Shown one piece after another: positions 13,750-24,916 of a DNA stretch of 64,000 bases. Within the stretch, counting starts at the first letter, position 1, and each line of letters begins with the position of its first letter. This stretch comes from Candidatus Gagatemarchaeum stordalenia (GTDB lineage Archaea; Thermoproteota; Nitrososphaeria; Nitrososphaerales; Gagatemarchaeaceae): assembly GCA_003164815.1 (NCBI GenBank), contig PLUF01000043.1, positions 1 to 64,000 on the forward strand, read 5' to 3'. The notes beneath the pieces are model-generated. The model was not told the DNA's origin. It was given only the letters and a program-made list of their open reading frames with translations, and searched no databases. Made by a program: the position numbers and the translations under genes.

Positions 13750-14736
13750 TCACTTTATGAACGAGGCCGCGAACGCGTACCGGTTCGCTCTCAGTACGTC
13801 CTCCTCGTTCAGGATTCCGTTCCGGAGGAGGAAGTCGATCTCTCCCCTCAGGTTGGTCATGAGCATCTCGGGACCGTCGGTGTTGATCGTGTACTTGATG
13901 TGGTGGGACTCGAGCGCCCGGAAGATCTGCTTCATGTGGCCGACGCCCTTCACGACTCGGGTGTTGAGGTTCGATGAAGGGCACACCTCCAGCGTAATCC
14001 CCTTCTCCCGCACCATCTGGAGCGTCTTGTCGTTCTCGATGGACCGGATCCCGTGGCCTATCCTGTCCGGGTCGAGGTACCGGATCACCTCCCTTACGGA
14101 GCCGTGACCCTCGTCCTCCCCGGCGTGCACCGTCAGGCCGAGGCCCTCGTCCCGCGCCCGTCGGAACAGGTCCTTGCACTCGGAGTAGTGGAACTTGTTG
14201 CTGTGCGGTCCGGCGATGTCGATGCCGACCACGCCCCTGCTCTTGTAGCGGAGCGCCTTCTCGAGGAGTATCGCGTTCTGCCCGTGATTGAAGGTCCTGT
14301 CGAGGCAGATGATTAGGCCGGTCCGGACAGGGTACTCCAGGGACGACCGGTCAATCCCCCGTATCGCGGCCATCATGATCTGGTCCAGGTCCTGCTCACC
14401 GCCCCTGTTCCTCTTCATGGGGTTGAACCGGAGCTCGAGGAGGGTGATGTTGTTCTTCCTGTAGGCCCCCGCAATCGTGTGGTAGACCGACTGCTCGATC
14501 GCGAGCGGGGACGACTGGATCAGCTCGGTCCACTTGAACATCTGCAGGTAGTCCTCGAACGACTTCACCTTGCGGGGGTTGACCGTGATCATATCGACGA
14601 ACCGCCAGTAGTCCTTCGTCGGGAGCTTGATCCCCTGGGCGTGGGCGATCTCCCACATCACGGCCGGGTCCACGGAGCTCCCTAGGTGCACGTGCAGCTC
14701 GGCTAGCTTCGTCTGGGGACCGAGGAACTGTGGCAT
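13750..14736 (-). CDS. add: Adenosine deaminase-family protein
   Basis: 328 residues. Metal-dependent amidohydrolase fold with AELHVHLGS (two zinc His), a GIDIAGPHSN segment, TVHAGEDEGHGSV (third His and catalytic Glu), DRIGHGIRS and NTDGPEM (metal Asp). In classical adenosine deaminases the last motif is NTDDP; here the second Asp is Gly. Converts adenosine to inosine, or possibly adenine to hypoxanthine or another aminopurine. Third gene of guaB-guaA-add, 7 bases after guaA, which fits purine salvage and interconversion. Confidence 0.82.
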   Translation of the reverse strand: MPQFLGPQTKLAELHVHLGSSVDPAVMWEIAHAQGIKLPTKDYWRFVDMITVNPRKVKSFEDYLQMFKWTELIQSSPLAIEQSVYHTIAGAYRKNNITLLELRFNPMKRNRGGEQDLDQIMMAAIRGIDRSSLEYPVRTGLIICLDRTFNHGQNAILLEKALRYKSRGVVGIDIAGPHSNKFHYSECKDLFRRARDEGLGLTVHAGEDEGHGSVREVIRYLDPDRIGHGIRSIENDKTLQMVREKGITLEVCPSSNLNTRVVKGVGHMKQIFRALESHHIKYTINTDGPEMLMTNLRGEIDFLLRNGILNEEDVLRANRYAFAASFIK

Positions 14737-14743
14737 CTCTCTA

Positions 14744-16294
14744 TCACTGGGGCTCTATCGTCGCCGGGGGCTTGGAGGAGATCGCATAGACGACGCTCAC
14801 GACGCCTTCCACCTCGTTCGTGATCTTGGCTGAGATGCTCTCCAGCAGCTCGTTGGAGGCCCGGTACCAGTCGGCGGTCATGGCGTCGATCGACTCGACT
14901 ATCTTGACCGTTACCTGGTAGCCCACCTTCCGCTCGTCTCCCAGGACGCCGGTCACCCTGTCGTCGCCGACGTACGCGAAGCCCTGCCAGACCTTGTTGT
15001 AGACGCCGCCCTCGACAAGGGCGTCCTCCACCACCTTGTTCGACTGCCGGCAAACCCTCAGCTTCTCCGGCGTGACCTCTCCGATGATTCTGACGGCGAG
15101 GCCCGGTCCGGGGAAGGGATGCCTCTGCAGGACTTTCGCTGGCAGCCCGAGGAGGGCGCCGAGCGACCGGACCTCGTCCTTGTAGAGCGCGCGGAGGGGC
15201 TCCACCACCTCCATCGAGAGGCCCTTGGGGAGGCCGCCGACGTTGTGGTGGGTCTTTATCACAGAGGCGGGTGCGGACGAATGGCCGCTCTCGATCACGT
15301 CGGGGTAGAGGGTGCCCTGGGCGAGGTACCGGAACGGACCGTGTTCGCGCGCATATCTCTCGAACGCCTCTGCGAAGACCCTCCCGATGATCCGGCGCTT
15401 CTCCTCCGGTTCGGCCACGCCGTCAAGGGCGGAGAGGAAGGCCCGCGAAGCGTCGACGAACTCTATGGGCACCCCGAGGTCCTCCCTGAGGAACTTTGAG
15501 ACCTCCGCGCCTTCACCCTCCCGCAGGAGGCCGGTGTCGATGAACACGCACTGGAGCTTGTCTCCGACCGCCCGGTTAAGCAGGACGGACGCGACTGACG
15601 AGTCGACTCCCCCCGAGACGGCGCAGAGCACCCTGCCGTCAATCCTGGCCGAGAGGTCTGCGATGGTCTCGTCGAGGAAGTTGGACATACTCCAGCCCCG
15701 CTTGGCGCCACAGACGTTGAAGACGAAGTTCGAGAGTATGGCGCTCCCCTTCTCGGTGTGTGCCACTTCGGGGTGGAACTGCACGCCGAACTGCCTCCCG
15801 TCGGCGGACTGGACGGCGGCATAGGGGGAGTTGTCGCTGACCCCGAGCACGGACATCCCCGCTGGGAGCCTTGTCGCGGCGTCGCTGTGGCTCATCCAGC
15901 ATGAGATCTTGTCCTGGGAGAACCCGCTGAAGAGGCCCGACCGGTCGAGGATCGTGAGGCTGGACTTCCCGTACTCCCTCCTTGAGGCCCGCTCGACCTC
16001 GCCGCCGTGAGCCTGGACGATGAGCTGGTACCCGTAGCAGATGCCCAGGACCGGAATGTGGCCGCGCAGCAGGGCCTCGTCGGGATGCGGAGAGGACGGG
16101 GAGTAGACGCTCGCGGGGCCACCTGAGAGCACCACTCCGGCGACCTTCATCCTCAGCAGGTCTTCCATCGGGGTGTCGTGCTTGAAGAGTGTCGCGTATA
16201 CGCCGAGGGCCCTGATCCTCCGGCATATCAGGTGCGAGTACTGACCCCCGAAGTCGAGGACCGCGATGCCCCCGTCCAGGAGATCTTCCTTCAG
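14744..16294 (-). CDS. guaA: GMP synthase (glutamine-hydrolysing), probable CTG start
   Basis: 516 residues if started at CTG 16294. Class I amidotransferase domain: VLDFGGQYSHLICRRIRALG at the N-terminus, nucleophile Cys86 in GICYGYQ, His174 and Glu176 in QFHPEVAHT. ATP pyrophosphatase domain has the P-loop SGGVDSS (227-233) and a C-terminal dimerisation domain. Makes GMP from XMP. The first ATG in frame (16168) would delete the first 42 residues, including the DFGGQY strand. No ATG, GTG or TTG exists between the upstream stop and that ATG. A GGGGGA purine run lies about 8 bases before CTG. Only one base separates it from guaB. Confidence 0.9.
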   Translation of the reverse strand: MKEDLLDGGIAVLDFGGQYSHLICRRIRALGVYATLFKHDTPMEDLLRMKVAGVVLSGGPASVYSPSSPHPDEALLRGHIPVLGICYGYQLIVQAHGGEVERASRREYGKSSLTILDRSGLFSGFSQDKISCWMSHSDAATRLPAGMSVLGVSDNSPYAAVQSADGRQFGVQFHPEVAHTEKGSAILSNFVFNVCGAKRGWSMSNFLDETIADLSARIDGRVLCAVSGGVDSSVASVLLNRAVGDKLQCVFIDTGLLREGEGAEVSKFLREDLGVPIEFVDASRAFLSALDGVAEPEEKRRIIGRVFAEAFERYAREHGPFRYLAQGTLYPDVIESGHSSAPASVIKTHHNVGGLPKGLSMEVVEPLRALYKDEVRSLGALLGLPAKVLQRHPFPGPGLAVRIIGEVTPEKLRVCRQSNKVVEDALVEGGVYNKVWQGFAYVGDDRVTGVLGDERKVGYQVTVKIVESIDAMTADWYRASNELLESISAKITNEVEGVVSVVYAISSKPPATIEPQ

Positions 16295-16295
16295 C

Positions 16296-17405
16296 CTATG
16301 TTCCCCCTTTCAGTGTGAGCGAGTGGACTCCGAGCTCGGTGTACCCGACGGCCGAGACGAGCCCGAAGGTCGCGACTCCCCAGAGGTCGCGGATGCTCTT
16401 GGCTCCGGCGTACCCGAAGGAGGCCTTCAGCCCGTTGGCCATGCCGCCCAGTACCTCCTCGGCGGGCCCGGCGTAGTCGACGTACGCCTCGACGCCTTCG
16501 TCGAGGCCCTTGGCGGGGACGCTGTAGCGGTCAAGCGCGAACCTTGCCTTGCGGGCGGCGGCGCTCGCCATACCCCTGTGGACCTTCATCTTCCGGCCGC
16601 TCTTCGTGACGACCTTGCTTGGCGACTCGTCGGTGCCGGCGAGGACCGAGCCGAGCATCACCGTCGAGGCTCCTGCGGCGAACGCGAGCGACGCGTCACC
16701 GGAGCCCCTGATCCCTCCGTCCGCTATTATCGGAATATCGAGGTTGAGCTCGCTCGCCGCGGTCGCTACCTCGGCGACGGCGAAGAGAGTGGGCGCCCCG
16801 ACCCTCGTAACCTCAGAGGTTATGCACACCGACCCCGAACCGATGCCCACGCGGAAGCCGTCGACCCTGGGGAGCTCCGCGACAATGTCGTGGACGGCCC
16901 GCCTGGTGCCGATGTTCCCCGCGATGAAGTCCTTGCTGAGGTTCGGTATCACCTTGGCGGCGGCCCTGAGGACGTTGGAGTTGTGGAAGTGGGCCACGTC
17001 GGCGACCAGGAAATCAGCGACCTTGTCCAGGGCCTCGCAGCGAGCGACATCCATAGGAGAAATGGAGGCGCCGACAAGCGGCCTCCCCTGCGGGTCCATG
17101 CTCTTGACCTGCAGCTTCGAGGCCTTCACCTTCCTTACCTGCTCGACCTGGTCCTCTACGCTCAGGTTCCTGTGTATGACACCCGCGCCTCCCAGCCTTG
17201 CCATCTCGAGGGCGAGCCGCCACTCGGTGACGGTGTCCATGGGGGACGAGACGAAGGGGAGCTCAAGTGTGATCTTCTTGGTGAGGCTCGATGCGAGAGA
17301 GATGTCGCGGGGCTCTACGTCGCTCCGTCCGGGGAGCAGGATGAAGTCGCGGAAGGTAAAGACGTTGGAGGCGTTCTTCAGTTTTGAGACAAAACTTAAT
17401 GGCAA
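16296..17405 (-). CDS. guaB: IMP dehydrogenase lacking the CBS (Bateman) domain
   Basis: 369 residues; typical enzymes have about 480. TIM barrel with SSPMDTVTE, VADVAHFHN, GIGSGSVCITSEVTRVG (nucleophile Cys194, Thr196), IADGGIRGSGD, HRGMAS and DRYS. The Arg293-Tyr294 pair and the HRGM loop mark IMP dehydrogenase rather than GMP reductase. The barrel goes straight from strand 2 (about 100) to strand 3 with no CBS pair. Converts IMP to XMP with NAD. Start is TTG at 17405; this codon lies in an inverted repeat (17400-17424). First gene of guaB-guaA-add. Confidence 0.85.
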   Translation of the reverse strand: MPLSFVSKLKNASNVFTFRDFILLPGRSDVEPRDISLASSLTKKITLELPFVSSPMDTVTEWRLALEMARLGGAGVIHRNLSVEDQVEQVRKVKASKLQVKSMDPQGRPLVGASISPMDVARCEALDKVADFLVADVAHFHNSNVLRAAAKVIPNLSKDFIAGNIGTRRAVHDIVAELPRVDGFRVGIGSGSVCITSEVTRVGAPTLFAVAEVATAASELNLDIPIIADGGIRGSGDASLAFAAGASTVMLGSVLAGTDESPSKVVTKSGRKMKVHRGMASAAARKARFALDRYSVPAKGLDEGVEAYVDYAGPAEEVLGGMANGLKASFGYAGAKSIRDLWGVATFGLVSAVGYTELGVHSLTLKGGT

Positions 17406-17424
17406 GGTCTTGTTGTCCTTGCCA
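17400..17424 (-). promoter_or_regulatory. Perfect 8-bp inverted repeat over the guaB start codon
   Basis: TGGCAAGG, nine bases, CCTTGCCA. The TTG start codon of guaB is within the downstream arm as read on the minus strand. It could fold in the mRNA and hide the start, or act as a DNA operator. The TATA-like CTTATTATAG lies near 17445-17455. Confidence 0.4.
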
Positions 17425-17455
17425 AAGCAAGCTCTCCAAGGTGCTATAATAAGGA

Positions 17456-18052
17456 TTATGGCCTTTCGGCCGAAGAAGCGCTCATCAGGTTCGCCCCCGC
17501 CCCGATGACCCAGATGACTGCCGGGTAGGCGACCATCCTTTCCATCCCCCCGGGACCGAGTCCGAGGTATACGCCGCTGGCGTAGAGGACCAGGGCCATG
17601 AGCGTGACCGCGCCGAGGACGGCCGAGAGAAGGGAGAGAGGTGGTCTGAGGACCCTGTATGACGAAAGGGCGGCGAGGCCTGTGAAGAAGAACGCGACGA
17701 AAGAGACCAGGACGTGCAGGCCGCCCGTGGACTCCGGGAAGACCCCGACGCCCATTGCTCCGAGGCTGCCGAGCATGGTGAGGATGCCGACCGCTCGGTA
17801 GCGGCTCGTGAAGATCAGATAACCGGCGGCCACGCCGGCGAGGCCCAGGAGGAAGACGCTGACGTCGAAGATCGTGGCGGAGGGCTGGATGATGGCGCAG
17901 CCCGGGTTGCAGTCCGCGCCGAGGTCACTGATGTGGTTCCCCGAGATGCTGTAGTCGGGGAAGAGTGCCTCGGCGACGGTCAGCGAAAGGATGAACTGCG
18001 TCCCGCCCACGAATAGAAGCAGACCCGCAGTCTTCAGGGGACTCCGGGTCAA
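17456..18052 (-). CDS. DUF998 integral membrane protein
   Basis: 198 residues with about six membrane helices. N-terminal LLLFVGGTQFILSLTVAEAL, then the family signature NHISDLGAD and later helices. The acidic ISDLG loop and length match DUF998. Function of the family is unknown. It follows the nucleotidyltransferase gene by 7 bases, so the two are probably co-transcribed. A cell-envelope role is possible but unproven. Confidence 0.75.
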   Translation of the reverse strand: MTRSPLKTAGLLLFVGGTQFILSLTVAEALFPDYSISGNHISDLGADCNPGCAIIQPSATIFDVSVFLLGLAGVAAGYLIFTSRYRAVGILTMLGSLGAMGVGVFPESTGGLHVLVSFVAFFFTGLAALSSYRVLRPPLSLLSAVLGAVTLMALVLYASGVYLGLGPGGMERMVAYPAVIWVIGAGANLMSASSAERP

Positions 18053-18059
18053 GACGCGC

Positions 18060-18776
18060 CTAACCCTGGCTTTGCGCCTGGAGCGACTTCATCTCGGACT
18101 CGACCTCGTGGAGGTCCTTGATCGAGTCAATCAGGCTCCAGAAGCCGTAGAATGGGTAGGACACGATCTCGGCATACTGGACCAGCCTCGGGAAGGTCTC
18201 CCTCTCGATGTCGCCCGTCTCGGGGAGGTGCTTCATGACCTTCTGGGGGTTTATCACATAGACGCCTCCGTTAATCCAGACGTCGGGGAACTCGGGCTTC
18301 TCCTCGAACTTTCTGACTACCTTCAGCTTGTCGATGTAGACAATCCCGAACCTGGACTTGTAGGGGACGAGCGCCATGGTGACGGTCGGCTGGGTTCCCG
18401 GGGCCTCGTGCGATGCGACCATGCTCTTGAGCGGCAGCGAGGTGATGATGTCTCCATTCATCACCAGCACGTTCTCGGACGGGTTGTGAAGTTCGTTGAG
18501 CGCTTTCCTTATGGCGCCTCCCGTCCCGAGTGGGGTATCCTCCACGCTGTAGGAGACCGCTACGCCCCCGTAGCTGTTACCGAAGTGCTCCTTCAGGCGG
18601 TCCCACTTGTAGCCGCAGAGGAAGACGACCTCGTCGAGGGTCACCTCCCTCTTGAGCCAGTCGATCTGCCACTCGGCTATCGGGCGTTCGTTGAGGAGGA
18701 CGAGCGGCTTGGGCTTGTCCTCGGTCAGGGGCCTCAGGCGAAGTCCCTGCCCCCCCGCCAGGATGAGGGCTTTCAT
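18060..18776 (-). CDS. Sugar-1-phosphate nucleotidyltransferase (mannose/heptose-1-P guanylyltransferase-like)
   Basis: 238 residues. Nucleotidyltransferase fold: MKALILAGGQGLRLRPLTED with KPKPLVLLNERP, the nucleotide-binding loop, then DTPLGTGGAIR, VMNGDIIT (metal Asp), FEEKPEFPDVWINGGVYVI and the C-terminal DIERETFPRL. Activates a sugar 1-phosphate to an NDP-sugar for glycan or glycoprotein synthesis. No left-handed beta-helix acetyltransferase domain. The short form resembles HddC and GDP-mannose enzymes. Sugar and nucleotide are not decided by sequence. The PfkB kinase at 12-13 kb resembles the kinase of the heptose route. Confidence 0.85.
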   Translation of the reverse strand: MKALILAGGQGLRLRPLTEDKPKPLVLLNERPIAEWQIDWLKREVTLDEVVFLCGYKWDRLKEHFGNSYGGVAVSYSVEDTPLGTGGAIRKALNELHNPSENVLVMNGDIITSLPLKSMVASHEAPGTQPTVTMALVPYKSRFGIVYIDKLKVVRKFEEKPEFPDVWINGGVYVINPQKVMKHLPETGDIERETFPRLVQYAEIVSYPFYGFWSLIDSIKDLHEVESEMKSLQAQSQG

Positions 18777-18911: not shown

Positions 18912-19784
18912 CTAGTCCAAAATATATCGGGCGAGCTCGGGCTTCCCTCTCGTCGAGACGTAGACCCCGGGGAAACCGCGGTCCCTCAGGGCATCCGTCA
19001 CCCCTTTCGCCTCCTTGAGTAGCCTGCGCTCCCCCTCCGCCGCGATCCTGTCCAGCTCCGGAGGCAGGTCCCATCCGAACCGCTCCCTGCACGCCTGCAC
19101 GTCCTCTCTCGACCTGAACGGGAAGATGTTGTGAAGGACCTTCTTCTCGAGGTGGTTCTTCTCGAGGAGCGAGATGTGCCGCTCCAGGGTACGAGGAAGG
19201 TCGGAGGTCGGGGGTTGAGCGAGTAGGACGTCGCTCCCCGCGTCTAGGCGAGCCATGGCGATCCCCAGGCCCTTCGGGTGGTTGAGCGCCGTGATGTCGA
19301 CGGGAGAGAAGAGCGTAGCGTTGACGTCGGCCCTCTCTGCCAGGGCCCTCGCCTCGGCCACGGCCTCGGCGAGCGACCTAAAGTCGTACACGTTCTTAGT
19401 CCCGTCGCCCTCGGCGTACCGGTCGCCCCAGACGAGGGAGACGGATTCGAGCCCCAGCGACAGGCAGGAGAGGAACATCGACCGGATCGCCTTGCGGTTC
19501 ATGTCCCGGGTCGGGATGACGGGTATGACCTCGACGCCGAGCTCGTCCTTCAGGATCGCGGCTGTGTAGATGCTCGCCAGCTGCAGCCTCGCGGGGTCCT
19601 TCATGTCAGCGACGAGAATGGCATCTGCGAGTTCAGATATCCGCCGGACCCGGGCAACGGTGTCCCTTAGCTTCTGCTTGATCCCGATCAGAGGCTCCTT
19701 GGCTGTCTCGACGCTGAAGCTCGGAGGGAAGATCTCGATCAGGGTCGTGAAGACGCCCCGTTCCATCCGCTCGTTTAGTCTCAA
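18912..19784 (-). CDS. Methylenetetrahydrofolate reductase-like protein
   Basis: 290 residues. TIM-barrel flavoprotein of the MTHFR family: LIEIFPPSFSVETA at the N-terminus (family E-PP), PVIPTRDMNRKAI, LGLESVSLVWGDRY, LFSPVDITALNHPKG and LLAQPPTSD. Would reduce a methylene-tetrahydropterin to the methyl form. It directly follows three MetE-like genes, so it probably supplies methyl groups for methionine synthesis. TTG 19784 overlaps the previous stop as TGATTG; an ATG at 19766 is the alternative start. The pterin (folate or a methanopterin type) is unknown. Confidence 0.75.
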   Translation of the reverse strand: MRLNERMERGVFTTLIEIFPPSFSVETAKEPLIGIKQKLRDTVARVRRISELADAILVADMKDPARLQLASIYTAAILKDELGVEVIPVIPTRDMNRKAIRSMFLSCLSLGLESVSLVWGDRYAEGDGTKNVYDFRSLAEAVAEARALAERADVNATLFSPVDITALNHPKGLGIAMARLDAGSDVLLAQPPTSDLPRTLERHISLLEKNHLEKKVLHNIFPFRSREDVQACRERFGWDLPPELDRIAAEGERRLLKEAKGVTDALRDRGFPGVYVSTRGKPELARYILD

Positions 19785-21032
19785 TCACTCGATCACTTTC
19801 TGGCGGTACACCTGGGCGCCAGACTGGAGGGAGGCCTCGGCTCTGCCCAGCTCGAGGGTCAGATAGGCCAGGTGTCGCCTGCTGATGCCGAGCTTGTCGG
19901 CCTCGTCGTTGAGGGATTGGAATATCCGCTCAGCCGACCTAGACTTGAACCGCTTCTTGGGCACGTGCTCGTAGGAGTAGTACGTGACCAGGATCTCCTT
20001 CGACTCCCGGAGAATCGAGACCAGGAAGTAGCCCTGAGGGTCGTACTCCTTTGAAGTGAGCCGGGAGGGAACGGCCTCCTCCGGCCGTCCGAAGTAGACG
20101 TCGTCCCTTGCGAGAGTGAGCACGACGTTCTTCGCGTAGGCGACCTCGCGGTTGAGGTTCCGCTGTCCGCAGTGGGGGTGGACGAACTGGATCCTGTCCT
20201 CGCCGAGCTTGGCACGGGCGAAATCGATCATCTTCCCGGTCTCTTCCACGGTCTCGACCCTCAGGCTCTGGCTGTCGGTGCAGCCGAGGCCGATGAGCTG
20301 GTCGTAGTTCCGCCTGCTAGCCTCGTCGAACAGTCGGGGGTAGTGGTAGAAGTCGAGCGAGAGGGTGTGGACCCTTGTCCTGGTAAGCTCCGGGAAGACC
20401 CTTGAGGCGTCGCCGCAGGCGTGGAGCACGACGGGGATCTTGGCCGCGGCTGCGACCTCCTCGTAGAGCCCGACGAAGTAGTCGGGGGTGAACGAGTCGG
20501 CCGCGACGGCGGGGGAGTCGAGCTGAATCCAGGACACCGCGCCCGAGTCCTGCAGCTGTTCTATCTCCGGAATCACGATCTTCCTGTTTATCTCGACTGC
20601 GAGCTCTCTTGCGTCGGCGTAGGACCCCGTGTTTATCTTGGCGAACCTCGCGAGCGTGTACGCGTCGGTGATCGGCTCCTTGATCTCGTAGTGGGTGGGG
20701 AGCGCGCTCCTGGCGTGCAGCACGTCGGCCAGCCTGTTCGAGCCGACCCTCGAGATCTTCTCGTCGACGAACGCTTCGGCGCCGTTCCACCTTATCCCCT
20801 TCACGAACTTCGGGTCGAGGAAGAGGGAGTAGAGGTCGCCTCTCGACTGGCCGGTCGACGGGACCTCGATGCCAGCCGAGGTGAAATCCTCGAGAGCCTC
20901 GTCGATGGACCAGAAGTACGGGTCGATGACCTCCTCCCCCAGCCCGTGGCTGGAGATCGCTAGGTAGTACTCGACATCCTCTGGTCTCGGGAAGGTGGGG
21001 TAGCTACCTATGGTCGTGGTCTTCGGAATCAA
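19785..21032 (-). CDS. MetE-like protein (cobalamin-independent methionine synthase family), paralogue 3
   Basis: 415 residues. UROD/MetE barrel with an N-terminal TIGSYPTF motif. The zinc-ligand motifs of catalytic MetE domains are present: VVLHACGD (His, Cys) and VHPHCGQRN (Cys). Substrate-face residues WIQLDSPA and LSLDFYHYP also fit. Only one barrel, as in archaeal core-MetE proteins, rather than the two-barrel bacterial MetE. Probably transfers a methyl group to homocysteine. ATG overlaps the upstream gene by four bases and the MTHFR-like gene follows at once. Confidence 0.78.
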   Translation of the reverse strand: MIPKTTTIGSYPTFPRPEDVEYYLAISSHGLGEEVIDPYFWSIDEALEDFTSAGIEVPSTGQSRGDLYSLFLDPKFVKGIRWNGAEAFVDEKISRVGSNRLADVLHARSALPTHYEIKEPITDAYTLARFAKINTGSYADARELAVEINRKIVIPEIEQLQDSGAVSWIQLDSPAVAADSFTPDYFVGLYEEVAAAAKIPVVLHACGDASRVFPELTRTRVHTLSLDFYHYPRLFDEASRRNYDQLIGLGCTDSQSLRVETVEETGKMIDFARAKLGEDRIQFVHPHCGQRNLNREVAYAKNVVLTLARDDVYFGRPEEAVPSRLTSKEYDPQGYFLVSILRESKEILVTYYSYEHVPKKRFKSRSAERIFQSLNDEADKLGISRRHLAYLTLELGRAEASLQSGAQVYRQKVIE

Positions 21033-22234
21033 GGAGCCGAGAGTTCACCCCTCGCCTTCTCCGCGCCTCCCACGACCAGGTCGAGCATGCGCTGCGCAAC
21101 CTCCGGTCTCCGTGTCCGGAGTCCGCAGTCCGGGTTCACGTACAGGTCTCCGGGGTCGAGCTCGGTGACCTTGGCCGAGTATAGGATCCGGTCCCTCACG
21201 ACATCGACGCTCGGCAGCCTGTCCGTGTGGATGTGGAGGACTCCGACCCCGAGCCCCTTGGCGTAGCCGTATTCCTTGAAGAGCTTGAGGTCCGCGAATC
21301 CCTGTCTTGCCTCATCGGAGAGGCCCCGGCGATAACCGTCCCGATTGCCGTACTCGAAGGAGAATCGCTCGCAGTTCTTCATCTCGAGCAGCTCTGGGAA
21401 GAGAATCCCATAGCCGAGGCTGGGCGGGAAGCAGCTGTGGACGCTGAACGTAGCGCTGAGGCCCTTGGTCGTCTCGTTGAACGACTCCGCGACGAGCTTG
21501 ATGTCTTCGCGCGACTGATACTGGGACGCCGCCGGGATGTCGATTTGGACCTCCTCGACCCCCTTCGCTATGAGCTCGCGTACGACCTTCCGGATAATCT
21601 TGGCCAGGTCCAAGGTGAACTCCCGCCTAGCGTTGAAGGACCTCCTCAGCGGGGAGGCCTTCTCCCTCGCCCACTTCGAGGTGTAGTGGTGGTTGTCTGA
21701 CCAGGCCATGATGGTGATGGCGTCCGTCACGGGTACCTTGATCTTCCTCTTGGCGTGCTTCTGGGTAAAGAGGAGCTCGTCGATGTGGTAGTTGCTCTTG
21801 TATGCAGGGGGCGACCTTATCGACGCCATCCTCCAGTACTTGTTGTCGAAGCTCCTCACCTTCCCGATGAACTCGAAGCCTTCGATGTTCGAGACTGGCG
21901 TCTCGTACATCTCGGTGCGGGCCTGCTCCCCCGACCAGACTAGGTCCAGCCCTCGATGTTCGGCGAGGTCATCGCCGGCAGTCTCGTTCATCCTTATCGC
22001 GTAGAGGAGCGAGAAGTCGACTATGGAGGCCTTCTCCGTCTCTGTAAAGCCCGCCCTCTTCGAGAGAATCTTGAGAAGTTCCCCGGTCCGCGGAACCTTG
22101 AGCTTGTCGCCCCACACCTTGGCAGAGATCAAGTCGGAGTCGTCCAGCTCCATCTGTCTGAAGGGCTTCGTCCTCCAGGAGAACTTCGGGAGGCTGCCAA
22201 TCTCCTGGGTCGGGAACGTCTTGCTCAACCTCAT
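21029..22234 (-). CDS. MetE-like protein, paralogue 2
   Basis: 401 residues. MetE/UROD barrel beginning KTFPTQEIGSLPKFSWR (homocysteine-side QEIGS motif). It has VQIDIPAAS, SVHSCFPPSLG (His and Cys zinc ligands), FSFEYGNRD and VNPDCGLRTRRP (Cys ligand). The VNPDCGL-TR end is the clearest MetE signature of the three paralogues. A long insertion (about 45-160) replaces the usual short linker. Coupled by four-base overlaps on both sides, so all three barrels are made together. Could be a methionine synthase or a methyl acceptor-specific variant. Confidence 0.78.
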   Translation of the reverse strand: MRLSKTFPTQEIGSLPKFSWRTKPFRQMELDDSDLISAKVWGDKLKVPRTGELLKILSKRAGFTETEKASIVDFSLLYAIRMNETAGDDLAEHRGLDLVWSGEQARTEMYETPVSNIEGFEFIGKVRSFDNKYWRMASIRSPPAYKSNYHIDELLFTQKHAKRKIKVPVTDAITIMAWSDNHHYTSKWAREKASPLRRSFNARREFTLDLAKIIRKVVRELIAKGVEEVQIDIPAASQYQSREDIKLVAESFNETTKGLSATFSVHSCFPPSLGYGILFPELLEMKNCERFSFEYGNRDGYRRGLSDEARQGFADLKLFKEYGYAKGLGVGVLHIHTDRLPSVDVVRDRILYSAKVTELDPGDLYVNPDCGLRTRRPEVAQRMLDLVVGGAEKARGELSAP

Positions 22235-23205
22235 CGACCTCCAAGCACCTTCTTGAGTGCCCCGAGACGCGTGAGCTTTTCGTCTGCGGAGATGCGGGGG
22301 ATGTACCTCAGGTCTGAGGACGGGGCCAGTGTGATCGACCTCGAACCCGTCCGGTCGGCGACGAGTTCGATCTTCGCCTTCAGGTCTTCGACGCTCTCGA
22401 GGTATGTGGTCCGGGCGTCCGCCACCCCTGCGATGATCCCCTTCCTCGTCCTCGTGAGGGCCTCTGGGTCCGTCTGGGTAAAGTCAAACCCTATGTCGCT
22501 GGTCGGAATCGAGTCGAATATGTCAGGAATGTAGGGAGAAGCGTCGCCGAAGAAAGTGTGAAAACCAGTCCCGATGGAGATTCCTTTCGTGGTCGTCCTG
22601 ACCGCCTCTCCTACCTGCATCAGCGCGTCCCTGTTGAGGGGCTTGCCTCTGAAACGGGCCACAAGGGCGGGGGACGAGAGCTGGACATACTCGACGCCGT
22701 TCTCCTCCAGAGTCCTGAGCTCCCCGTTCAGGGCCTCTGCGAACGCGAACATGGCCTTCTCCCTATCGTGGTAGTAGCCGTCTTCCGAGAGCTCCGAAAG
22801 CGTGAGTGGGTCGGGCAGTGAAATCCTGAACCTTCCTTCCCGAACGAATCTATGTTCCAGCTTCTTCCAGATCGCTTTCCCGTCGCTCGAGATAGGGCCG
22901 TCAATGACGGGAGCCTGGTAGAACGTGTTCGTGTTGTACCACCTTACCATCGCACCCCTCTTCACGCCGGAGAACCCGCTCGTGATGGGCCTGAGCGAGT
23001 CCTGCCAGGCAGTCGTCATCTGACCGTCGGTGATGTAGTCCGTCCCCGCGTCCTTCTGCAGGCGGACGAGGGACGCGGTGTCGTCCCTGAAGGCCGCGGC
23101 GAGGAGGGCGGAGTCGATCCTGCCCCTCTCCCAGTCTTGGGTGGCTTGAATGGTGGCCTCGTTCCTCGCGTGAAGCCCGGTAAGCGATAGCTTGAACTCG
23201 GTCAA
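22231..23205 (-). CDS. MetE-like protein without zinc ligands, paralogue 1
   Basis: 324 residues from TTG. Resembles the N-terminal barrel of MetE: LSLTGLHARNEATIQAT, TDGQMTTAWQD, SLPDPLTLSE, VEYVQLSSPAL and IGFDFTQTD. At the zinc positions it has GFHTFFGD (no Cys) and LAPSSDLRYIP (no Cys), so it should not activate homocysteine itself. In two-barrel MetE the N-terminal barrel helps bind polyglutamyl folate, so this protein may serve that role in trans. First gene of the operon; leader of about 40 bases after a minus-strand TTTTTATT. Confidence 0.7.
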   Translation of the reverse strand: MTEFKLSLTGLHARNEATIQATQDWERGRIDSALLAAAFRDDTASLVRLQKDAGTDYITDGQMTTAWQDSLRPITSGFSGVKRGAMVRWYNTNTFYQAPVIDGPISSDGKAIWKKLEHRFVREGRFRISLPDPLTLSELSEDGYYHDREKAMFAFAEALNGELRTLEENGVEYVQLSSPALVARFRGKPLNRDALMQVGEAVRTTTKGISIGTGFHTFFGDASPYIPDIFDSIPTSDIGFDFTQTDPEALTRTRKGIIAGVADARTTYLESVEDLKAKIELVADRTGSRSITLAPSSDLRYIPRISADEKLTRLGALKKVLGGR

Positions 23206-23857: not shown

Positions 23858-24916
23858 TCAGCTCGCTAGGCGCTCGCCGAGGAAGTCGACTATGATCCCC
23901 ATTGCTTCCTTTGTAGACCACTGACTGCCGGCGTTCTGGTTGCCCAGAAAGGGCGCGTCGCCGTGGTCGGCGCCTTTCAGGACGTAGCGGGTGCTGGGGA
24001 CGGCCCTGGCACGCAGCGCGGTGTGGAGGAGCAGCGTCTGGCTCGGCGACACGAACCGGTCACTGCTGCCGTGCATCTCGATGAACGGCGCGGTGCTGGA
24101 GCTGATGTACGTAATCGGGCTGGCTGCCTTGAGCGCCGCGGGATCGTCCCGAGCTGAGAGTTTCGTCCCTGGGCCGTTGACGAACTTGGCCAGCGGGTTC
24201 CCCGGCGTGTACTTGACTTCCTTCGTCTCGGCATCGTAGTCGGCGGCAATCCTGGAGAGGCCGGAGGGTCCGTATTCGTCCACGACTGCCTGGATGTCGC
24301 TGCTCTCGTTCAGGTCGTCGCCTATGTCGAACTGCTTCTCTCCGTTGGTGGTACCGGCCATCGCGGCCAGGTAGCCGCCGGCGGACTGCCCCCGGACTGC
24401 GATTCGGTCCGCTTTGGTGCCGTAGAGGTCGGAATGCGCACGCAGTTATCGGATGGCTGACTTCACGTCGGTGAGGGAGTCCCGCCATGAGGCACCGTCG
24501 ATGACCGTCCTGTAGGTGATGCTGGCCACTGCGAATCCCTGTTCCGCGACGTGGATCAGTTGGTTCAGGTTCGTGATCTTCTCGGCCATGACGAATCCGC
24601 CGCCGGGGATGTAGATCACAAGAGGCTTCAGACCCTGCGTCCTGGACACCTTAATGTCCATGACCAGCCGAGTGTCCTTGCCGTTCGTCGTCGGTGCCGA
24701 ATACACGACATCGTTATACGCCGAGAGCTGAGTCTGGCCGGACTGGATCTGGGGTCCTCTCGGGTCGATCACGATGCTAGTGCTGTCGTCAATCGGCTTC
24801 ACCGTCTTGGCGATCGCTATCATCCCTCCCCCCCGAGTCCCTTCATGCCACCCCGAAATGGCCCGGTGCTCGGAGGCTGGTGCGAGTCCATCGGGACGGA
24901 AATCGACCTCCATCAA
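23858..24916 (-). pseudogene. Alpha/beta-hydrolase (esterase/lipase), interrupted by one in-frame TAA
   Basis: 352 residues if the TAA at 24446-24448 is read through; start could be ATG 24916 or the ATG at 24823. The frame is otherwise intact. Esterase landmarks are VIYIPGGGFVMA (oxyanion hole), RGQSAGGY (nucleophile Ser, just after the stop), HGSSDRFVSP (Asp) and GADHGDA (His), the full triad of carboxylesterase/BD-FAE-type hydrolases. The stop replaces the residue in SAIR-LRAHSDLYG, where a Tyr (TAC/TAT) is common, so one substitution would explain it. As is, no active enzyme can be made. No signal peptide. Confidence 0.75.

Follow-up and report, generated by a model that had tools for sequence, protein, structure and literature searches.

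A MetE-type barrel fused to a DUF4346 domain as a putative third component of a split methionine synthase operon in Nitrososphaerales-type archaea

Background

A methionine synthase usually consists of one protein or of two parts, and its methyl donor is clear. A stretch of 64,000 nucleotides from Candidatus Gagatemarchaeum stordalenia (contig PLUF01000043.1 of assembly GCA_003164815.1), referred to here as the window, contains at positions 18912-23205 four head-to-tail open reading frames (ORFs), g1-g2-g3-g4, all of them on the minus strand, and raises the question of what three single barrels of the MetE family do in one operon with a relative of methylenetetrahydrofolate reductase (MTHFR). 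An earlier interpretation made from the DNA alone (the sequence-only reading) had proposed that such a three-protein assembly may be a distinct type of methionine synthase. The answer that we favour, with a probability of about 0.5, is a B12-independent methionine synthase that has a split MetE as its basis and in which g3 would act as a second homocysteine-activating subunit.

Results and Discussion

A split MetE in g1 and g2

The Pfam matches (PF08267/PF01717 for the barrels and PF02219 for the reductase) and the ORF list agree with the sequence-only reading as to the presence of three single barrels followed by an MTHFR-like gene, and also as to the 4-base overlaps between successive barrels (g1/g2 and g2/g3; g3 and g4 abut without overlap). 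A zinc motif is found, as had been noticed, in two of the barrels, being HxC...E...C in g2 and HxC...D...C in g3, with neither form in g1. The product of g1 scores higher with PF08267 (49.1 bits) than with PF01717 (39 bits), g2 matches PF01717 alone (79 bits), and g3 matches PF01717 (58.7 bits) together with PterinBD-DUF4346 (PF14251), a domain that went beyond the earlier description and was seen by Pfam. In a tree of all the barrels, which included no named PF1269 sequence and no named MesA, MesB or MesC references, g1, g2 and g3 appear as three separate clades, and the g2 of the window nests among split-MetE catalytic subunits from families that have no g3.

Archaeal split MetE has been described by Price et al. 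(2021; PMC7857596) as the pairing of a Meth_synt_1 barrel with a catalytic one, the two genes being usually adjacent, and the parts PF1268 and PF1269 form a complex in Pyrococcus furiosus (PMC7857596). To judge by their sequences, g1 and g2 are an ordinary split MetE of this kind, with a zinc-less N-type barrel adjacent to a catalytic barrel. In g2 the homocysteine residues S14/E103/D232 and the zinc ligands H266/C268/E294/C370 are all kept, as are W178, equivalent to the pterin-stacking W539 of Thermotoga maritima MetE, and H336, equivalent to H672, which has been named as a candidate proton donor (PMC539065). The equivalents of W539 and H672 are kept in the operon g2s except those of one divergent genus, g7 (L029, L098, L103, L104), whose g2 is very diverged, with a stem branch of 1.85, and has its zinc and homocysteine residues in place. 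The screening rule of Price et al. sets an upper limit of 400 amino acids (aa) for each part of a split MetE (PMC7857596); g1 has 324 aa, and g2, with 401 aa, exceeds it by one residue owing to an insertion. The differences from the reported split MetE are that the operon g2 has 27-43 extra residues between the Ser and Glu anchors, and that a third barrel gene and an MTHFR gene come next. Thus, what stands of the proposed distinct type is a conserved operon, very probably encoding the methionine synthase of its hosts, whereas g1 and g2 were already known as split MetE (PMC7857596); the novelty of the three-protein set was overstated by two proteins. The kinds to which g1, g2 and the MTHFR gene belong are known, and the new part of the operon is g3 with its extra domain.

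A second complete zinc and homocysteine centre in g3

The family that best matches g3 is the PRK00957 methionine synthase, at 131.8 bits for the protein of the window and 136.6-155.3 bits for its relatives, which does not reach the cut-off of 258. The zinc ligands H204/C206/D227/C288 and the homocysteine residues S10/Q62/D172 of g3 are invariant (7/7) in a 13-row alignment, and the same seven residues are conserved in the remaining fused proteins as far as these cover the stretch concerned; the identities of g3 across relatives are 41-91%. In a profile alignment the g3 residues correspond to S411/E462/D577/H618/C620/E642/C704 of T. maritima MetE, with Gln replacing E462 and Asp replacing E642. 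According to Price et al., Gln at the second homocysteine position, giving a Ser/Gln/Asp set, is the state of MesA and MesC, and an Asp zinc ligand is that of the characterised MesB. Phe, Asn, His or a gap is found in g3 at the position of W539, and Gln, Gly, Ser, Ala or Glu at that of H672; since both are replaced, the methyl-folate site of MetE is gone in g3. A phmmer search of the Protein Data Bank (PDB) with g3 gave no match, and a search with a g3 profile found MetE and the MesD-type entry 3rpd.

The barrel of g3 therefore resembles the core methionine synthases MesA-MesD and PRK00957 in its complete zinc site, its Ser/Gln/Asp set and its lack of a methyl-folate site. It differs from them in several respects: it is fused to DUF4346 and has 415 aa, in contrast to the single domain of at most 386 aa by which those proteins are recognised, it is far under the PRK00957 cut-off, it is linked to a split MetE, and the genomes that encode it have neither MtrA nor a B12 methyl carrier that can be recognised, whereas MesA has MtrA, and MesB and MesC a corrinoid iron-sulfur protein, as corrinoid donor partner (Price et al., PMC7857596). 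MesD, for its part, requires MesX (DUF1852) and O2.

Two full active sites per operon suggest two jobs, and it could be that g3 methylates or demethylates some other thiol or thioether, rather than converting homocysteine to methionine, and shares with the other genes only the pool of methyl-pterin made by g4. The Asp in place of the Glu zinc ligand, the TDA or TDP that g3 has in place of MetE TGP, and a weak similarity to methylcobamide:coenzyme M methyltransferases would be in line with this possibility, but the models of these enzymes (MtaA-type) give only 16.6-17.9 bits on g3, far under their cut-offs of 244-400, and we consider another substrate unlikely.

Linkage of g3 to the operon and an insertion in g2

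The genomes analysed are metagenome-assembled, mostly 71-96% complete, so that the absences reported here lean on agreement among many of them. Fused g3 proteins are present in 25 genomes, comprising 22 of the 400 sampled in the class as well as G001, G005 and G006, and these belong to four families (f1, f5, f9 and f20) in two orders, f20 being a member of another order of the class. No further fused g3 was found in 398 genomes across the phylum, the best matches there being single-domain barrels. The closest named records of g3 are those of Thaumarchaeota archaeon AcS4-109 (91% identity) and Nitrososphaerales archaeon JOPF037 (84%), and the hosts of the operon are uncultured Nitrososphaerales-type relatives of ammonia-oxidising archaea. 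A genome survey for the four-gene order, which the sequence-only reading had suggested as a check, showed that f1, f9 and f20 share g1-g2-g3-g4 on every contig of sufficient length; in f5 (G028) the MTHFR gene adjoins g3 on the opposite side, and the short contig shows no g1 or g2. The ratio of nonsynonymous to synonymous substitution rates (dN/dS), compared between species of one genus, is 0.09-0.20 for g1-g4 and indicates purifying selection on all four. Because of this selection, and because the order recurs down to about 45% identity of g3, the operon is not a chance arrangement. In two genomes of genus g7, G310 and G259, the g2 is G019-like and the g3 groups with f9, the latter with modest support (92/75); this mix, if real, would mean an exchange of individual parts within a set that remained complete.

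The presence of g3 goes together with a change in g2. The spacing between the Ser and Glu anchors is 78-91 residues in all 17 measurable g2s located beside g3 (89 in the window), and 48-51 in all 15 distinct split-MetE g2s without g3; it is 51 between S411 and E462 of T. maritima MetE (PMC539065). When 16 of the g3-adjacent g2s were put on the tree they formed one clade, with support of 100/98. A constant linkage to split MetE with a modified g2 would also be observed if g3 were catalytically silent and served as a scaffold, or as a regulator of split MetE that senses pterin by means of DUF4346, and there is a precedent in that MetE recruited a disabled barrel by duplication (PMC539065). Nevertheless, zinc and homocysteine residues should disappear from a silent barrel, as they did from g1, whereas g3 keeps seven out of seven at a dN/dS of about 0.1-0.16, which makes a purely structural or regulatory role very improbable.

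Methyl-pterin supply and the DUF4346 domain

The product of g4 resembles MTHFR in matching PF02219 over the Pfam cut-off (29.9 bits against 24) and in keeping the Glu of the (V/I)E(I/V)FPP motif and the Asp of WGD, both kept in relatives too, and differs from it in being strongly diverged, far under the NCBIfam equivalog cut-offs. It is the sole PF02219 protein of its genome, and all MTHFR matches in relatives with g3 fall within the operon or next to it. Hence g4 is probably the enzyme that makes the methyl donor of the operon. FolD, a source of methylene-tetrahydrofolate, is present in the genus labelled g1 (not to be confused with the gene).

The match of PF14251 to the C-terminal part of g3 has 47.6 bits (51 bits in a second scan), above the cut-off of 29.6. 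AlphaFold2 modelled the isolated domain with a mean predicted local distance difference test score (pLDDT) of 85.5, as three strands and two helices. A PDB sequence search with a related DUF4346 gave no match, and our literature search found no paper naming the domain. The pattern DPxGxF ... HxAYLxxELxKAExSLxxGxxYxQ is common to the C-terminus of g3 and to the C-termini of dihydropteroate-synthase-like proteins (TIGR00284) from other families of the order, and it is also found in the C-terminal part of the MtrA model PRK00964. Contrary to these proteins, which likewise have DUF4346 at the C-terminus, g3 carries it on a MetE-type barrel, and no report of such a fusion was found. An identification of DUF4346 as the cobalamin-binding domain of MtrA was rejected on two grounds: its match within the MtrA model is to a distinct stretch near the C-terminus (positions 284-365 of 390), and PF04208 is absent.

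Other methionine synthases and corrinoid partners

A separate complete MetE or MetH in the genome had been named in advance as what would speak against the assignment of the operon to methionine synthesis. The sampled genomes with g3 yielded no MetH homocysteine domain, and in 10 of the 16 g3-bearing genomes (G001, G003-G007, G010, G019, G028 and G032) the operon contig contains the sole PF01717 matches. Two additional MetE homologues with a single barrel are encoded in the genome of the window itself, on contigs C101 (L042:6592-7758; 388 aa) and C16 (L043:4134-5360; 408 aa); they are best described as PRK04326/PRK06520-like, with a HICRGN or HVCRGN motif and intact zinc and homocysteine residues, and they are absent from many relatives. 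Because of these two proteins the operon is not the sole methionine synthase candidate in its own species. A MetH-type protein is present in two genomes of the order, G031 and G033, which, to judge by their size and gene content, look like ammonia oxidisers.

As for corrinoid partners, MtrA (PF04208) and MtrH are absent from all sampled g3-bearing genomes, and the genome of the window has no MetH-type or corrinoid-carrier B12 domain, a corrinoid iron-sulfur protein not having been searched for. Two B12-binding domains do occur in it, one in a 150-aa frame with a length like that of the small subunit of methylmalonyl-CoA mutase, and the other in a 619-aa protein with a radical-SAM-like CxxxCxxC stretch.

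The nearest non-fused relatives of g3 are the PRK00957-like proteins of family f27, in the same phylum. There, a single-domain PRK00957-like gene adjoins an MtrH-like gene (L107:5207-7609, L110:6134-7893), L107 also has a B12-binding corrinoid protein, and in L108:5178-7532 the corresponding positions are taken by genes of similar length; Ser or Ala replaces the Glu zinc ligand in these proteins. The f27 locus looks, from its gene content, like a corrinoid-dependent three-part methionine synthase. That g3 is fed by a corrinoid protein, as in these relatives, is not favoured, no partner having been found.

Such relatives, together with PRK00957 as the best family, the MesA/MesC-type Ser/Gln/Asp set and the lack of W539 and H672, give weight to an arrangement in which g1, g2 and g4 are a normal split MetE with its MTHFR, and g3 is a core synthase in its own right, with methylcobalamin or a MesD-like unknown as donor, so that the operon would hold two donor routes. 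In that case the ancestor of g3 would have been fed by a corrinoid protein, and its lineage would have lost that partner and acquired DUF4346. This is the main competitor of our interpretation, but the lack of corrinoid carrier, MtrA and MtrH is not what it would lead one to expect, nor is the fact that g3 was never seen apart from g1, g2 and g4 on contigs of sufficient length, or that g2 is altered where g3 is present; we regard it as possible, although doubtful.

A putative three-barrel methionine synthase

In the reading that we prefer, a B12-independent synthase in which g3 is a second homocysteine-activating subunit, g4 would reduce a methylene-pterin to the methyl-pterin, as its family membership suggests. 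The products of g1 and g2 would pair, g2 holding homocysteine on zinc and receiving the methyl group, in the interbarrel cleft, from methyl-pterin; this step is proposed because the conserved residues are complete and because PF1268 and PF1269 have been reported to form a complex. The product of g3 would be a third, obligate partner with a zinc and homocysteine centre of its own, in which the pterin-stacking site of MetE has been lost; it would probably obtain methyl-pterin via DUF4346 and would methylate homocysteine as the second catalytic subunit in one complex with g1 and g2. The widened form of g2, which is seen only alongside g3, may provide a docking surface for g3. We infer the membership of g3 in the complex, and its donor and acceptor, and place it as third subunit because of its strict linkage, the altered g2, the intact site of g3 and the failure to find a corrinoid partner. 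More tentatively still, g3 might represent a fifth kind of core methionine synthase, B12-independent and zinc-dependent, with a tetrahydropterin donor held by DUF4346, and working as third subunit of an enlarged split-MetE complex.

Several observations weigh against this interpretation. Sister families of the order have a split MetE without g3, which is thus dispensable for the basic reaction. Since the extended g2s are one clade, a single joint gain of the insertion and g3, followed by simple co-inheritance, may account for their association. The Trp and His of the methyl-pterin site are missing from g2 in genus g7, where this protein is a poor fit as a methyl-pterin enzyme. FolD was not found in five g3-bearing genomes, most of them incomplete (G008, G011, G014, G019 and G028), and the identity of the pterin is therefore uncertain. 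Pterin binding by DUF4346 is predicted from its name and fusion partners, and a Foldseek search of the PDB with the modelled domain gave no match at E <= 0.001. Finally, the AlphaFold2 model of full-length g3, built with four close sequences, had a pLDDT of 41.5 and was discarded as too poor.

Features of the locus and its surroundings

Table 1 Features of the methionine synthase operon in the window
Feature	Position	Strand	Length and start	Basis or remark
g1, split-MetE N-type barrel without zinc site	22231-23205	minus	324 aa, TTG start	PF08267, N-subunit clade, no HxC..C
g2, split-MetE catalytic barrel	21029-22234	minus	401 aa	PF01717, residue tables, tree clade
g2 stretch with extra residues between S14 and E103	21965-22156	minus		boundaries approximate
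g3, core-MetE-like barrel with C-terminal DUF4346	19785-21032	minus	415 aa, TTG start	
PterinBD-DUF4346 domain of g3, residues 331-411	19800-20042	minus		PF14251; predicted 3 strands and 2 helices
g4, diverged MTHFR	18912-19784	minus	290 aa, TTG start	PF02219, motif residues

Downstream of the operon (Table 1), at 13750-18776 on the minus strand, lie genes for an NTP transferase, a DUF998 protein, IMP dehydrogenase, GMP synthase and an adenosine deaminase-like protein, a neighbourhood that adjoins the operon in the same genus only and is consequently outside the conserved set. On the other side, a BD-FAE type alpha/beta hydrolase is encoded in two minus-strand ORFs, 24446-24916 and 23858-24361 (23858-24916 of the window as a whole), that match consecutive parts of the Pfam model and indicate a frameshift, either real or made in assembly.

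Conclusions

Two complete zinc and homocysteine centres, one with the methyl-pterin site of MetE and one without it, have been kept together in this operon over long evolution. The operon offers a direct test of how a core MetE could operate when it has no corrinoid partner, and it may reveal what DUF4346 does. Moreover, it fills the methionine step in uncultured archaea that have no MetH.
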